DNA from: a bacterium
GTDB lineage: Bacteria; UBP18; UBA7526
Reading direction: 5' to 3'
Assembly (NCBI GenBank): GCA_030619985.1
Contig: JAUXAI010000053.1
Span: forward strand, 1-8,135
DNA: 8,135 nucleotides
Positions 2 through 8,135 of this stretch are shown here, piece by piece. The position numbers and the translations under genes were made by a program. The notes beneath the pieces are model-generated. The model ran no database searches, was not told the origin of the DNA, and worked only from the letters and a program-made list of their open reading frames with translations. Numbering within the stretch: position 1 is the stretch's first letter; each line of letters begins with the position of its first letter.

Positions 2-463
2 GGCTATTTTGACCAAATAATAGAGGCGGTAGCTATCCTCTCTAAGAAGAAGAAGGGAGCACTCATCTCTCTGGAAAGAGAGACAGGATTAAAGACCTAC
101 ATCGAGACTGGAATAAAGATCGATAGCGAGGTGAGTCGGGAACTACTATCCACCATCTTCCTACCTTCCACCCCGCTTCATGATGGAGCGGTCATCATCC
201 AGGGCAATAGAGTTGCTGCTGCGGGATGTCTCTTGCCCTTTACCAGAAATCCAGATGTTTCTAAGAGGATGGGAATGAGGCATAGGGCGGCTCTGGGTCT
301 CTCGGAGGAGACGGATGCCATAGTGATTGTTGTCTCTGAAGAGACGGGGAAGATATCTCTGGCGGTTGGGGGAAGACTAACCAGGGATCTGGATGAAACT
401 ACCCTATCCAAGACACTGCAGAATCTATTACTTCGGCCCCTTCCCAAAGGAGAAGAGAAATGA
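2..463 (+). CDS. cdaA: Diadenylate cyclase CdaA (DacA/DisA_N domain), 3' part only
   Basis: The gene is open to the left edge and 153 codons are visible in the frame starting at base 2. It encodes the C-terminal catalytic DAC domain, which condenses two ATP into c-di-AMP. The DGA motif sits in TPLHDGAVII (visible residues 58-66, DGA at 61-63) and the RHR motif in MRHRAALGLSEETDA (RHR at 93-95). Both are ATP-binding/catalytic hallmarks of the family. The KGALISLERETGL stretch (18-30) matches the first strand of the DAC fold. CdaA proteins are usually about 270 residues with three N-terminal membrane helices, so the membrane part lies upstream of the window. A GTG at 131 is internal and not a real start. 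The TGA stop at 461-463 directly abuts the left arm of a long inverted repeat. cdaR and glmM follow, the classical cdaA-cdaR-glmM order. The CdaA call rather than DisA rests on this context and on the short C-terminus. Confidence 0.95.
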   Translation, partial: GYFDQIIEAVAILSKKKKGALISLERETGLKTYIETGIKIDSEVSRELLSTIFLPSTPLHDGAVIIQGNRVAAAGCLLPFTRNPDVSKRMGMRHRAALGLSEETDAIVIVVSEETGKISLAVGGRLTRDLDETTLSKTLQNLLLRPLPKGEEK

Positions 464-601
464 GTCCCGCCCCTCCTTTTATTAAAATGTTGCTCAATAG
501 AACTTATCAGCGGGTAATTTTTATACTTTCTATAAGTCAATTTTGTGAACCCCGCTCCTCAGAGAGGGGCGAGGGTGAAATTACACAGGGAGGGGCGGGA
601 T
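464..601 (+). repeat. Long-range inverted repeat joining cdaA stop to cdaR start (IR1)
   Basis: The left arm 465-476 (tcccgcccctcc) is perfectly complementary to 589-600 (ggaggggcggga). A G.U pair at 464/601 extends it to 13 pairs, enclosing a 112-base interior (477-588). The left arm begins right after the cdaA stop codon. The right arm contains most of the cdaR Shine-Dalgarno and the first two bases of its ATG. Folded in mRNA, the pairing would hide the cdaR start. A ribosome terminating on cdaA would cover the left arm and could release it. A matching structure lies before yvcK (3611-3733). The interior holds a short GC hairpin at 550-574. No clear promoter was found; TATACT at 522-527 lacks a good -35 partner. 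The pairing is seen directly; the regulatory role is inference. Confidence 0.8.
546..579 (+). repeat. Compact GC hairpin, third and collapsed copy of the arm sequence
   Basis: Bases 553-560 pair with 564-571 across a 3-base loop (aga), with one G.U pair. Two more G-C pairs (550-551 with 573-574) follow after one mismatch. The left half with its flank (546-560, tgaaccccgctcctc) is nearly the same as the left arm before yvcK (3608-3623, tgaaccccgcaccttc). The right half ends in ggtgaa, as that one does. It therefore looks like the same repeat with almost no interior. No run of T follows, so it is not a good intrinsic terminator. Confidence 0.65.
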
Positions 602-602
602 G
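587..602 (+). promoter_or_regulatory. cdaR ribosome binding site inside the IR1 right arm
   Basis: AGGGAGG at 587-593 is a strong Shine-Dalgarno with a 6-base spacer to the ATG at 600-602, which supports that start. Bases 589-601 are the right arm of the inverted repeat, so the site is predicted to be paired unless the left arm at 464-476 is occupied. Confidence 0.75.
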
Positions 603-2887: not shown

Positions 2888-3610
2888 ATGGTTAGATTAG
2901 GAGTGAATGTCGATCATGTGGCTACGGTAAGGCAGGCCAGAAGAGCTCCAGAGCCAGACCCTTTAGAGGCCGCCCTCTTGGCCCAGAGAGCAGGAGCAGA
3001 CTCCATCATCGTCCACCTGAGAGAGGACAGGCGCCACATCCAGGATCGAGATGTAGAGATTTTGAGGAAGAAGGTTAAGAGGCTCAACTTAGAGATGGCG
3101 GTAACGGAGGAGATTCTAGAAATCGCCTGCAAAATAAAACCGGACCAGGCCACTCTGGTACCAGAGAAGAGGCGAGAACTAACTACTGAAGGGGGATTGG
3201 ATGTAGCAGGAAACCTAAAGAAGATTTCAAAAGCGGTCAAAAGATTAAAAAAGGAAGGAATTCTTATTAGCCTGTTCATAGACCCTGATCTAAAGCAGGT
3301 CAAGGCCTCTACTAAGACAGGGGTTCAGATGGTGGAGTTACATACCGGATGCTATGCAGAAGCGAAAAGCAAGACGAAGAAAGGTAAAGAACTCACCCGC
3401 ATTTCCAGAGCAGCCAAAGAAGCGCGAGAGTTAGGCCTTGCGGTAAGTGCTGGTCACGGCCTCACCTATTGGAATGTCTCTCGAATAGCCAAAATTCCCG
3501 AGATAGAGGAATTGAACATCGGTCATAACATCATTGCCCGTGCAGTAATGGTGGGGATGAAAGAGGCAGTCGAAGATATGCTTAATCTTATTAAGAGGAG
3601 AAAGAAGTGA
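2888..3610 (+). CDS. pdxJ: Pyridoxine 5'-phosphate synthase PdxJ
   Basis: PdxJ joins 1-deoxy-D-xylulose 5-phosphate and 3-amino-2-oxopropyl phosphate to make pyridoxine 5'-phosphate, the last ring-forming step of the DXP-dependent vitamin B6 pathway. The 240 residues match the family length. Visible signatures are LGVNVDHVATVRQARR (4-19, with Asn7 and His10), VHLREDRRHIQDRDV (42-56, phosphate-binding His/Arg cluster), EMAVTEEI (69-76, catalytic Glu region), ELHTGCYA (150-157), VSAGHGLTY (186-194, His190) and LNIGHNIIARAVMVGM (209-224). The ATG lies 2 bases after the glmM stop with AGGA at 2879-2882, so the two genes are tightly coupled. It has no direct link to amino-sugar signalling; glmM-pdxJ and pdxJ-acpS neighbourhoods are common housekeeping arrangements. 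Its presence argues against a typical PdxS/PdxT Firmicute. The TGA stop at 3608-3610 abuts the second long inverted repeat. Confidence 0.97.
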   Translation: MVRLGVNVDHVATVRQARRAPEPDPLEAALLAQRAGADSIIVHLREDRRHIQDRDVEILRKKVKRLNLEMAVTEEILEIACKIKPDQATLVPEKRRELTTEGGLDVAGNLKKISKAVKRLKKEGILISLFIDPDLKQVKASTKTGVQMVELHTGCYAEAKSKTKKGKELTRISRAAKEARELGLAVSAGHGLTYWNVSRIAKIPEIEELNIGHNIIARAVMVGMKEAVEDMLNLIKRRKK

Positions 3611-3733
3611 ACCCCGCACCTTCTACTATATTTTATCATATTTATCCTTTGAAAATAGAAGAAGTGAAAGACTCTGTATTAGTTTTACCGCCCATAATAC
3701 AAAATCTTTTGAATCATAAGGAAGGTGCGGGGT
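3611..3733 (+). repeat. Long-range inverted repeat joining pdxJ stop to yvcK start (IR2)
   Basis: The left arm 3611-3623 (accccgcaccttc) is perfectly complementary over 13 bases to 3721-3733 (gaaggtgcggggt), enclosing 97 bases (3624-3720). The left arm starts on the base after the pdxJ TGA. The right arm holds part of the yvcK Shine-Dalgarno and the first two bases of its GTG. The AT-rich interior contains a small perfect 6-base hairpin (GTATTA 3676-3681 with TAATAC 3695-3700) and no convincing promoter or terminator. The layout is the same as at 464-601. Relative to that repeat, three stem positions differ and all three are compensated on the other arm. Confidence 0.85.
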
Positions 3734-3734
3734 G
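3718..3734 (+). promoter_or_regulatory. yvcK ribosome binding site and GTG start in the IR2 right arm
   Basis: AAGGAAGG at 3718-3725 precedes the GTG at 3732-3734 by 6 bases, which selects this start for the MKLKKILKWF N-terminus. Bases 3721-3733 belong to the right arm, so most of the site and the first two bases of the start codon would be base-paired in the folded transcript. Confidence 0.7.
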
Positions 3735-5045
3735 AAGTTAAAGAAGATATTGAAGTGGTTCTATCCTGGGATGCTCATTAAGAGATGGATAATCCTTTTA
3801 CTTGTCGGGATTATCTTTCTTGGAACGGGATTGGGTGGCCTATTGCGTCTTCCCAGGCCTCCCCAATTTGTAAAGGGTTTTGAAAGAATCTTTCTTTCCG
3901 AGGCCTTAGTTACTCGTCCGGTGGTTATGCTCATTCTCTTCATAGGTGTGATCTGTATTGCCATAGGCCTGCAACGATTGTTAAAATCCATCTACTCCCT
4001 CTTCGCTCCCCAAGAAAAGAGGGATTTGGTTGATGTGGTCTATGAGAAGAGGCAACTCAGGCGTGGTCCAAGAATAGTAGGCATTGGAGGAGGACATGGT
4101 CTCTCCAGCCTCTTAAAGGGAATAAAGGAGTATACCTCTAATCTAACGGCCATTGTCACTGTGGCTGATTCCGGAGGAAGCTCGGGAAGATTAAGAAAGG
4201 ACTTCGGCATGCCTCCCCCAGGGGATATCAGGAATTGCCTGGTGGCCCTGGCGGATACCGAGCCCCTGATGGAGGATCTCTTTCAATATAGATTCAAAGG
4301 TCCCAGCGAGTTAAAAGGTCACTCCTTTGGGAATCTCTTTATCACCGCAATGCGTGAAGTCACCAAGAACTTTGCCAGCGCCGTGAGGGCTACCAGCAAG
4401 GTACTGGCCATTCGTGGTCGGGTTCTCCCCTCTTCCCTAAGCGACGTCTCTCTCCAGGCAAAGATGAAGGACGGGAGAGTAATAAAAGGGGAGGCAGAGA
4501 TTCCTGAGGCGGGAGGTGAGATAGAGAAGCTCTCCCTTTTGCCTTCTGATGCTCCTTCCTATCCCGAGGCTCTGGAGGCCATAAAGGAAGCAGAGATAAT
4601 CGTTATCGGCCCGGGCTCTCTCTATACCAGTGTGATGCCCAACCTTTTAACAAAAGGGATGATAGAGGCCATAAAGAACTCAAGGGCCATTAAGATCTAT
4701 GTCTGCAACATCATGACCCAGGCGGGAGAGACAGACAATTATTCTGCCTCAGACCATATAGAGGCCATCTATAAGCATACTGAGAGTAGGTTCCTGGACT
4801 ATGTTCTGGTAAATACCAGCCAGGGTCCTCCAGAACTTGCCAAAAAGTATGAAGAGGAGAAGGCCTTCCAGGTAGTGGTGGATGAGGAAAAAATAGAAAA
4901 GATGGGATTAAAAATAGCTCAGGCAAATCTCATGAGCACCAAGGACTACCTGCGCCATGAGCCAGATAAATTAGCTCGAGCCATTATAAAGATCTTCATG
5001 GAAAAGAAGAAAGGGGCAAGAGTTGGTGAGAAAAAGAGAATTTAA
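3732..5045 (+). CDS. yvcK: YvcK/GlmR-family (CofD-like) regulator with two N-terminal membrane helices
   Basis: The 437-residue protein has an N-terminal extension and a YvcK domain from about residue 112. Family motifs are IGGGHGLSSLLKG (118-130), TVADSGGSSGRLR (143-155), PPPGDIRNCLVAL (161-173), a later HSFGNL, and a C-terminal half with VIGPGSLYTSVMPNLL. YvcK proteins resemble the F420-synthesis enzyme CofD but act as regulators. In B. subtilis the protein is needed on gluconeogenic carbon sources, binds UDP-GlcNAc and influences GlmS and cell shape. The B. subtilis protein is about 317 residues and soluble. Here two hydrophobic segments (about 19-38 and 63-81) precede the domain, so it is predicted to be held at the membrane with its domain in the cytosol. 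It shares an operon with cdaA, cdaR and glmM, which fits amino-sugar homeostasis. The NagB-like gene starts 9 bases after its stop. A true CofD is unlikely given the motifs and the absence of F420 genes here. Confidence 0.9.
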   Translation: MKLKKILKWFYPGMLIKRWIILLLVGIIFLGTGLGGLLRLPRPPQFVKGFERIFLSEALVTRPVVMLILFIGVICIAIGLQRLLKSIYSLFAPQEKRDLVDVVYEKRQLRRGPRIVGIGGGHGLSSLLKGIKEYTSNLTAIVTVADSGGSSGRLRKDFGMPPPGDIRNCLVALADTEPLMEDLFQYRFKGPSELKGHSFGNLFITAMREVTKNFASAVRATSKVLAIRGRVLPSSLSDVSLQAKMKDGRVIKGEAEIPEAGGEIEKLSLLPSDAPSYPEALEAIKEAEIIVIGPGSLYTSVMPNLLTKGMIEAIKNSRAIKIYVCNIMTQAGETDNYSASDHIEAIYKHTESRFLDYVLVNTSQGPPELAKKYEEEKAFQVVVDEEKIEKMGLKIAQANLMSTKDYLRHEPDKLARAIIKIFMEKKKGARVGEKKRI

Positions 5046-6523: not shown

Positions 6524-6559
6524 TAAGAGAATAAGAGAATAAGAGAATACGAAAATAAG
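6522..6559 (+). repeat. Octamer array with AATAAG core, overlapping the acpS stop
   Basis: The unit AATAAGAG occurs at 6522, 6530 and 6538, is degenerate at 6546 (AATACGAA) and ends with AATAAG at 6554, an exact 8-base period over five units. The cores are complementary to the CTTATT array at 6586-6631. Confidence 0.8.
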
Positions 6560-6584
6560 GGGAAGAAAGGTAAAATAAATAGGG

Positions 6585-6631
6585 ACTTATTTGCTTATTA
6601 ACTTATTTGCTTATTAACTTATTAACTTCTT
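6585..6631 (+). repeat. Octamer array with CTTATT core, just upstream of the nnr ribosome binding site
   Basis: CTTATT cores occur at 6586, 6594, 6602, 6610 and 6618, with a sixth variant CTTCTT at 6626, all with an 8-base period. Spacers alternate TG and AA, giving a perfect 16-base duplication at 6585-6600 and 6601-6616. The array is the reverse complement in core and the same in period as the array at 6522-6559, across 26 purine-rich bases. The RNA could form a long hairpin of 6-base-pair blocks separated by 2-base mismatches. The nnr Shine-Dalgarno (AGGGAG, 6635-6640) follows directly. Confidence 0.8.
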
Positions 6632-6646
6632 TTCAGGGAGCGTAGG

Positions 6647-8135
6647 ATGAAGGTTGTCACTGCAGAAGAGATGAGAGAAATAGATAGAAAGACCATTGCC
6701 TCTGGGATTCCTTCTATAGAACTTATGGAGAATGCGGGAAGAGCAGTAGCCAGAGTAATCAAATCCCATTATGCTCCTTTGAGGGGCGAAAAGGTCTCTA
6801 TCTTCTGTGGCAGGGGGAATAATGGTGGGGATGGACTGGTAGTGGCTCGTCTTTTAGCAAAAGAGAGAGTAAGGGTAAAGGTATTCTTATTAGCAAAGAA
6901 GGAAGAACTCAAGAGAGATCCGAAGACCAATCTGAAAAGAGTGCTAAAAGAATCCGCCTCTTCGGCGGATCCACCGATGAGGTGGATAGAAATTATAGAG
7001 ATAGATACTTCTCGAAAATTAGAGAGACTTAAACAAAAAATTAAAAAGTCAGATTTAATTGTTGATGCTATTCTGGGAACAGGAATAAAGGGAGCACCTA
7101 AAGGAATAGAAGCAAAAATCATTAAGTTTATCAATACCCTGAAGAAACCTATTGTCTCTGTGGACATTCCCTCTGGAGTGGAAGGAAGCACAGGCCGGGT
7201 CCCCGGAGAAGCAATAAGGGCAGATTTGACCATAACCTTCGGTCTTCCCAAGATTGGGTTGGTCGTCTATCCCGGAGCAGAATATGTGGGAAAATTAGAG
7301 GTAGCTCGCATCGGATTCCCCAAGAAATTCTTAGAGGATGAAAGGATTAAAGTAAACCTAATTGCTAAAGAAGAGATCTCTACTTATTTAGAACCAAGGA
7401 GGCCAGATACTCATAAAGGAACCTATGGCCATCTTTTCGTCATTGCTGGTTCAATTGGTATGACCGGTGCTGCAACCTTAACCTCTCAGGCGGCCTCTCT
7501 CTGCTTTGGGGCTCTAAGAAGTGGAGTAGGTTTAGTCACCCTGGGCATCCCAGAGAGTCTGAATGAAATCATGGAGATTAAATTAACTGAAGGGATGACC
7601 TTACCCCTACCAGAGACAAAAAAGAAAACTCTTTCTTTGAAAGCAGAAAAAGAGATCATAGAATTTTCTAAAAAGGCAGATGCTCTTGCTCTTGGACCTG
7701 GGCTATCTACCGATAAAGAGACTCAACAACTGGTAAGGAATCTAATAAAAAAGATTTCTCTCTCCATGGTCATTGACGCCGATGCCCTTAATGCCCTCGT
7801 TGGTCACCTCTCTCTCCTACATTCTCGCATTCCGCATTCCGCATTCCGCATAATTACTCCCCATCCTGGTGAGATGGCAAGGCTCATCAGTAAAACAGTA
7901 AAAGAGGTACAGGAGAATAGAATAAAGATTGCAGGCGACTTTGCCAAAAGATACAAAGTGATCGTTGTTTTGAAAGGAGCAAGGACAGTCATCTCTGATC
8001 CAGGAGGGAACACCTATATCAATCCCACGGGAAATCCAGGGATGGCCTCTGCGGGAGTGGGGGATGTTCTGACGGGGATGATCGGTTCCTTCTTAGCCCA
8101 GAGAAAGGAACCTTTAGAAGCAGCGAAGACAGGAG
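6647..8135 (+). CDS. nnr: Bifunctional NAD(P)HX epimerase / ADP-dependent NAD(P)HX dehydratase, 3' end cut off
   Basis: This cytosolic enzyme repairs hydrated NADH and NADPH: the N-terminal YjeF_N domain epimerises R/S-NAD(P)HX and the C-terminal kinase-like domain dehydrates the S form using ADP. The 496 visible residues leave only a few dozen missing. Epimerase motifs are LMENAGRAVA (26-35), FCGRGNNGGDGLVVARLL (53-70), IVDAILGTGIKG (138-149) and VSVDIPSGVEG (170-180). Dehydratase motifs are THKGTYGHLFVIAGS (255-269), ALGPGLSTD (348-356), IDADALNAL (376-384), ITPHPGEMARL (403-413) and NPGMASAGVGDVLTGMIG (463-480, catalytic Asp473). The ATG at 6647 has AGGGAG 6 bases upstream. Two repeats lie within the frame without breaking it: a double hairpin encoding residues 103-114 and a 7-base repeat encoding about 394-402. 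Both fall in variable segments between conserved motifs, so the enzyme is probably intact. Confidence 0.95.
   Translation, partial: MKVVTAEEMREIDRKTIASGIPSIELMENAGRAVARVIKSHYAPLRGEKVSIFCGRGNNGGDGLVVARLLAKERVRVKVFLLAKKEELKRDPKTNLKRVLKESASSADPPMRWIEIIEIDTSRKLERLKQKIKKSDLIVDAILGTGIKGAPKGIEAKIIKFINTLKKPIVSVDIPSGVEGSTGRVPGEAIRADLTITFGLPKIGLVVYPGAEYVGKLEVARIGFPKKFLEDERIKVNLIAKEEISTYLEPRRPDTHKGTYGHLFVIAGSIGMTGAATLTSQAASLCFGALRSGVGLVTLGIPESLNEIMEIKLTEGMTLPLPETKKKTLSLKAEKEIIEFSKKADALALGPGLSTDKETQQLVRNLIKKISLSMVIDADALNALVGHLSLLHSRIPHSAFRIITPHPGEMARLISKTVKEVQENRIKIAGDFAKRYKVIVVLKGARTVISDPGGNTYINPTGNPGMASAGVGDVLTGMIGSFLAQRKEPLEAAKTG
6952..6987 (+). repeat. 36-base double-hairpin palindromic element inside nnr
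   Basis: Two perfect 7-base-pair hairpins stand back to back and share two bases. ATCCGCC (6952-6958) pairs with GGCGGAT (6964-6970) across TCTTC. ATCCACC (6969-6975) pairs with GGTGGAT (6981-6987) across GATGA. The whole is 36 bases, exactly 12 codons in length, and encodes about residues 103-114 (SASSADPPMRWI) of the epimerase domain, where homologues usually have a shorter linker. It is GC-rich within AT-rich flanks. It resembles REP-type or coding-region palindromic elements. Confidence 0.75.
7821..7850 (+). repeat. Heptamer tandem repeat (GCATTCC)3+ inside nnr
   Basis: GCATTCC occurs three times in a row at 7827-7847, followed by GCA, and preceded by the diverged unit-like attctc (7821-7826). 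A 7-base period shifts frame each unit, so it encodes a non-repeating peptide (SRIPHSAFRI, about 393-402). This lies between the DADALNAL and ITPHPGEM motifs of the dehydratase domain. The frame stays open. Confidence 0.75.

Follow-up and report, generated by a model that had tools for sequence, protein, structure and literature searches.

REP elements are short palindromes that occur in many copies and are mobilised by RAYT (Y1) transposases. The elements described here are likewise short multicopy palindromes; however, REP insertion involves a Y1 (HUH) transposase and leaves no target duplication, whereas here 4 bp of target are duplicated and no Y1_Tnp protein was found in the six family genomes. 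IS1272 replaces target hairpins, also without target duplication (PMC5678879), and resembles the present elements in its palindromic ends and in an apparent role for inverted-repeat structure—here, in contrast, there is the 4-bp duplication, and an IS1182-family transposase was not found in those genomes. Prokaryotic MITEs share with the present element size, lack of coding content, terminal repeats, target duplications, copy number, polymorphism and, for some, in-frame insertion (PMC10969869). The same review notes Rickettsia palindromic elements for in-frame insertion inside genes; as palindromic mobile repeats tolerated by the genes they enter, these are the closest parallel for tolerance, although in the present family start-codon rebuilding dominates and copies inside genes are a minority (6/79). 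A different kind of precedent is translational coupling by RNA unfolding, in which, as may be the case here, a downstream start lies under structure that translation of the upstream gene may unfold; efficiency is highest where the genes lie close together, and known examples depend on short spacing or on overlap (PMC12548453). At the locus described here, by contrast, the coupling is putative, and a mobile element brought the stem into what had been an overlap.

The window (the whole 8,135-nucleotide stretch that was analysed, from a draft MAG of 91 contigs) contains cdaA (to 463), cdaR (600–1535), a glmM-type gene, pdxJ, yvcK and others, with gene names taken from sequence reading and from an earlier note on this DNA; the cdaA–cdaR and pdxJ–yvcK features given below are on the forward strand. 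That note had proposed that a stem running from the cdaA stop codon to the cdaR start hides the latter and couples its translation to that of cdaA, with a mobile palindromic repeat as the main alternative. On the sequence comparisons given below, we conclude with high confidence that the stem represents the terminal inverted repeats of an inserted MITE-like palindromic element. The full explanation—a MITE-like insertion, a rebuilt start codon, a retention bias and possibly coupling as a by-product—we regard as very probable.

The pairing itself is present, joining 464–476 with 589–601 across 112 intervening bases, and lies where it had been placed: the cdaA TGA (461–463) stands just before it and the cdaR ATG (600–602) at its right end. 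An ungapped scan extends it to 464–478 with 587–601, or 15 pairs including a G.U. One detail of the description changes, in that the outermost pair, G464.U601, is indeed paired but consists of bases of the target duplication (TGAG) and lies outside the repeat. Region 440–640 folds in silico, as do all structures reported here, to an MFE of -68.2 kcal/mol against -54.5 ± 4.8 for shuffled sequences (z -2.87), and 1 of 200 dinucleotide shuffles folds as well. The stem is not unique; the same anatomy is found at 3612–3732 in the window and at dozens of other genomic sites.

Relatives provide the site before insertion. The cdaA orthologues adjoin cdaR in relatives (tblastn), and in four of these (L071, L070, L072 and L047) the two genes overlap as ATGAGG, with a single TGAG; the window and L069/L045 have TGAG twice, with 136 bp between the copies. 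The L071 cdaA is 97% identical to that of the window. The junctions read GAAATGAG / TCCCGCCCC...GGGGCGGGA / TGAGGAAT in the window, against GAAATGAGGAAT in L071. The comparison of empty and filled sites therefore sets the element at 465–600 and the duplication at 4 bp; a 2-bp (GA) duplication was considered and rejected, since the TGAG/TGAG of the window fits the 4-bp reading only. The window holds the 3' part of cdaA, the diadenylate cyclase gene (2–463), whose stop codon is included in the left TGAG (461–464); the left terminal inverted repeat TCCCGCCCCTCCTT (465–478) follows and pairs with the right one, AGGGAGGGGCGGGA (587–600). Inside the right repeat is a Shine-Dalgarno motif, GGAGG (589–593), 6 nt 5' of the cdaR ATG, and its final base, A600, is the A of that ATG; T601 and G602, the first bases of the right TGAG (601–604), finish the codon. 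The open reading frame of cdaR, which encodes the CdaA partner, thus begins at a start codon rebuilt by the insertion (600–1535), and the empty-site relatives start at the same codon.

A second copy of this arrangement is found between pdxJ and yvcK. A TGAA that includes the pdxJ stop (3608–3611) precedes a 121-bp element (3612–3732) with arms CCCCGCACCTTCT / AGGAAGGTGCGGGG, and the TGAA recurs at 3733–3736. This second stop-to-start stem spans 3611–3733 with arms that differ from those at cdaA–cdaR; the final base of the element, G3732, is the first base of the yvcK GTG, and the site is empty in L071 (GGGGTGAAG). Repeats of other kinds also occur in the window: tandem-like runs of AGAGAATA and then TTATTTGCTTATTAACT repeats lie between an acpS-like gene and the next gene (6524–6640), and a run of GCATTCC repeats, possibly an in-frame repeat insertion, lies within a large ORF starting at 6647 (7820–7852).

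The wider family was sought as YCCCG...CGGGR inverted repeats bordered directly by identical 4-mers, overlapping combinations being dropped, in 705 kb of stretches from the window's own genome (G000; approximately 56% of that genome) and 719 kb from its closest sister species (G002). Its members are 25–245 bp long with 4-bp duplications, and number 44 in the former and 35 in the latter, not all of them independent, as some are common to both species by descent. Equal 4-mers abut 46 of 88 inverted repeats in G000 and 36 of 76 in G002; with shifted 4-mers the count falls to 0–2, and shuffled genomes give 0. The duplications vary in sequence while being equal on both sides (TGAA, TGAG, TCAA, TTTA), and every listed copy has 10–20 paired terminal bases. 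Mobility is documented by empty orthologous sites, which, besides cdaA–cdaR and pdxJ–yvcK, comprise seven further sites filled in one of the two species and empty in the other (L009 5015, L014 6152, L027 8204, L156 11745, L157 9270, L188 10526 and L184 3293), most of them at start codons. In its terminal inverted repeats, 4-bp target duplication, empty sites and short, non-coding, multicopy character, the family is that of a MITE. An assembly artefact or a chance inverted repeat might be suspected in a draft MAG, but a sister genome that was assembled independently (L045/L069) has the same insertion, six genomes carry the family and the shuffle controls are zero; we regard the chance of such an error as negligible.

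Members of the family come in three size forms: minimal hairpins of 25–30 bp, short copies of 47–75 bp and long copies of 80–245 bp. Their interiors are unrelated, so that several subfamilies exist. Elements may also nest; the cdaA–cdaR element hosts a 26-bp mini-element, CCCCGCTCCTCAGAGAGGGGCGAGGG (550–575), that is scarcely more than a hairpin and has its own duplication, TGAA, on the left (546–549) and right (576–579). The mini-element is absent from a related sister element, L180 12390 (TTTTGTGAAGTTATAG), which has a single TGAA at this point. A further hairpin type of 28–30 bp, YCCCGTTGATAN...TATCTACGGGR, was observed in the sister genome with flanking CTTG or CTGG duplications (L148 9406, L149 5951, L140 19032). 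As a separate observation, the interiors of some shared elements are near-identical across species (L038 1675 / L182 1319, 0/109 differences; L013 9394 / L140, 1/102), while the coding DNA that flanks them differs by several percent or more; constraint or recent exchange is possible.

The distribution of the family appears narrow. The closest relatives, all incomplete MAGs, comprise six genomes that belong to a single family, and the end motifs are found in 6/6 of these and sporadically elsewhere among 290 genomes. Unrelated DNA selected because it carries the end motif (668 kb) gave no duplication-flanked repeats, and a 14-base end motif that occurs singly in scattered genomes and in 65 viral stretches was accompanied by a duplication-flanked repeat at 0 of 82 loci. 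One distant genome (G053) carries five copies of AGGTGCGGGRTGAA, as against single matches elsewhere.

A cognate transposase was not found in the sampled stretches of these incomplete MAGs. No autonomous copy or transposase was found there between matched ends that lie at most 6 kb from each other and share a 4-bp duplication; a few long matched-end pairs were rejected, as their ends came from neighbouring separate copies and they enclosed several host genes. In the six incomplete family genomes, searches for DDE_Tnp_1, IS701, IS1182 and IS1380, as for Y1_Tnp, returned nothing, and rve gave one match each in G003 and G004 at loci with no matching element ends.

A departure from described MITEs is that the terminal repeat supplies a Shine-Dalgarno and a base of the start codon, and that long copies are concentrated on starts. 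The text of the MITE review contains no mention of start codons, stop codons or ribosomes (PMC10969869), and a search of an open-access collection found no description of MITEs that rebuild start codons. As the empty sites show, a short non-coding MITE-like element entered the stop/start ATGAG overlap of cdaA and cdaR, duplicating TGAG. The upstream gene retains its TGA to the left of the insertion, and the sequence shows that the last base of the element (A or G) joins the duplicated TG as a new ATG or GTG for the downstream gene and that the terminal repeat gives that gene a new Shine-Dalgarno. With start codon rebuilt and Shine-Dalgarno supplied, an insertion exactly on a start codon is therefore nearly harmless.

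The placement of the copies is consistent with this mechanism. The target is TGAR; where this consists of the TG of a start codon and a following AA or AG, the reading of the upstream gene, often through a TGA stop that overlaps the start, stays intact on the left. Long copies (at least 80 bp) lie exactly on start codons in 22 of 25 cases in G000 and 12 of 16 in G002, where equal tolerance of intergenic TGAR sites and start codons would predict 16% and 15% (p = 8e-15 and 1e-7). No enrichment is seen for short copies, with 2/19 on start codons in each species. The Shine-Dalgarno in the terminal repeat is GGAGG at cdaR and AAGGTG in other subfamilies. Starts were placed by a custom gene caller that rewards a Shine-Dalgarno; in empty-site orthologues, where there is no element to attract the caller, the downstream start falls on the same TG, and this check backs the placement in six cases. 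In the sampled part of the window's own genome, approximately 34 of 743 called genes start at a rebuilt codon, including 18 of 106 GTG starts.

Copies within called genes also indicate what is tolerated. Five of these six keep the reading frame (L036 6402, L157 9270, L138 4618, L173 11607 and L184 3293); they lie in genes of more than 200 aa and add a multiple of three bases, the duplication counted, in which they resemble Rickettsia palindromic elements. The sixth, in a 48-aa call, breaks the multiple-of-three rule.

The start bias of long copies could also have arisen if sequence context, translation or a structure-guided enzyme actively steered insertion to start codons, in place of random insertion followed by selective retention. 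The excess over equally tolerable intergenic TGAR sites would be expected of targeting, as would the interior orientation relative to the gene, which is constant in several subfamilies; however, the short members of the family show no enrichment at starts and occur both between and within genes. Two related elements, L009 7802 and L181 17508, are inserted in opposite orientations relative to their TGAA duplication, and only L181, in the start-proper orientation, lies on a start codon—a pattern that fits selection. We thus consider targeting unlikely and infer that the bias of long copies probably reflects selection or retention. A more elaborate form of the idea, in which an enzyme outside the tested families directs insertion to starts (for example, by recognising the folded ends or the DNA or RNA of the initiation region), the ends have evolved into a portable ribosome-binding site and start codon, and the arms keep the two host genes translationally coupled once the element is in, strikes us as quite doubtful.

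The alternative favoured by the earlier note is that the stem was selected to couple cdaR to cdaA translation, with the terminating ribosome opening the left arm. Relatives keep the cdaA–cdaR order and lose the pairing without compensation, the whole element being absent and a direct ATGA overlap standing in its place; additionally, equally paired arms are found in places that have nothing to do with stop or start codons. Both are observations that the earlier note had named as refuting its proposal. The stem therefore did not arise for coupling, and the empty sites, the 4-bp target duplication and the multicopy family bear out the mobile palindromic repeat that had been offered as the alternative. 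The duplications are themselves left unexplained by a coupling stem.

Pairing between the arms is nonetheless well kept across the family. Among 69 distinct copies of at least 40 bp, 804 of the 828 positions compared (the outermost 12 of each copy) are paired; random reassignment of the right arms gives 686 pairs, and at most 717. Coordinated changes of the two arms are seen at positions 1, 6, 7, 8, 9, 10 and 11, position 7 occurring as A-T, C-G and T-A. The pairing is, however, equally kept at start sites (11.6/12) and elsewhere (11.7/12); hence self-complementary ends belong to the element and provide no evidence for coupling. Such ends are needed for mobility or are inherited as such.

In the RNA, the arms are predicted to pair and to cover the new ribosome-binding site, and it is here that part of the coupling proposal stands. 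The computed mean unpaired probability of the start region in 35 start-site copies is 0.13 when folded and 0.41 with the left arm held open, as against 0.44 in ordinary genes; by computation, then, the downstream start is blocked by structure, as in coupled pairs. A start hidden by the stem and freed by an upstream ribosome is thus possible in its mechanics, but the stem that would do so was imported rather than evolved for coupling. An upstream stop lies within 20 nt of 25 of 37 start-site copies, a count that includes copies shared by descent, compared with 226 of 525 comparable starts (p = 0.003). This excess fits a filter in which hidden starts are better tolerated where a terminating ribosome can open them; however, 12 of the 37 have no nearby upstream stop, two of these lying behind divergent genes, so that an upstream stop is not required. 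Five shared copies differ between species by a mean of 1.0%, against 14% in 27 other intergenic regions (p = 0.011, a small sample), which hints weakly that entire elements are constrained. Taking both sides together, we find it improbable that the stem was selected for coupling.

With the MITE-like insertion as the origin of the stem, a ribosome finishing the upstream gene could still cover and open the left arm of operon-internal copies, and coupling as a conditional by-product of insertion is possible. As coupling is best at small distance, the ATGA overlap of the ancestral state probably held the two genes in tighter coupling; it is more likely that the insertion weakened or replaced a tight coupling than that it created one.

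Long copies might instead be a conserved cis-regulatory RNA leader that is mobile in looks alone, as they stand at the starts of genes, for the most part share an orientation and are well conserved across two species. Rfam gives no match in the window, and empty orthologous sites, duplications and unrelated subfamily interiors speak of insertion rather than of a common leader; we judge this very unlikely, while exaptation after a MITE-like insertion is compatible with a role of this type.

The rebuilding of ribosome-binding site and start codon, together with the near restriction of long forms to starts, had not been seen in the earlier note, and these cases serve as a warning that a stem running from stop to start may be a repeat brought in from elsewhere and not a regulator that evolved in place. 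The filled and empty sites also provide many natural before-and-after pairs for the effects of spacing and structure on translational coupling. For the organism, they show a simple way in which mobile DNA is accommodated in a compact genome: by entering at a stop/start overlap with its own ribosome-binding site and start base, an element spares both genes, and a visible fraction of translation starts has been written by a mobile element.
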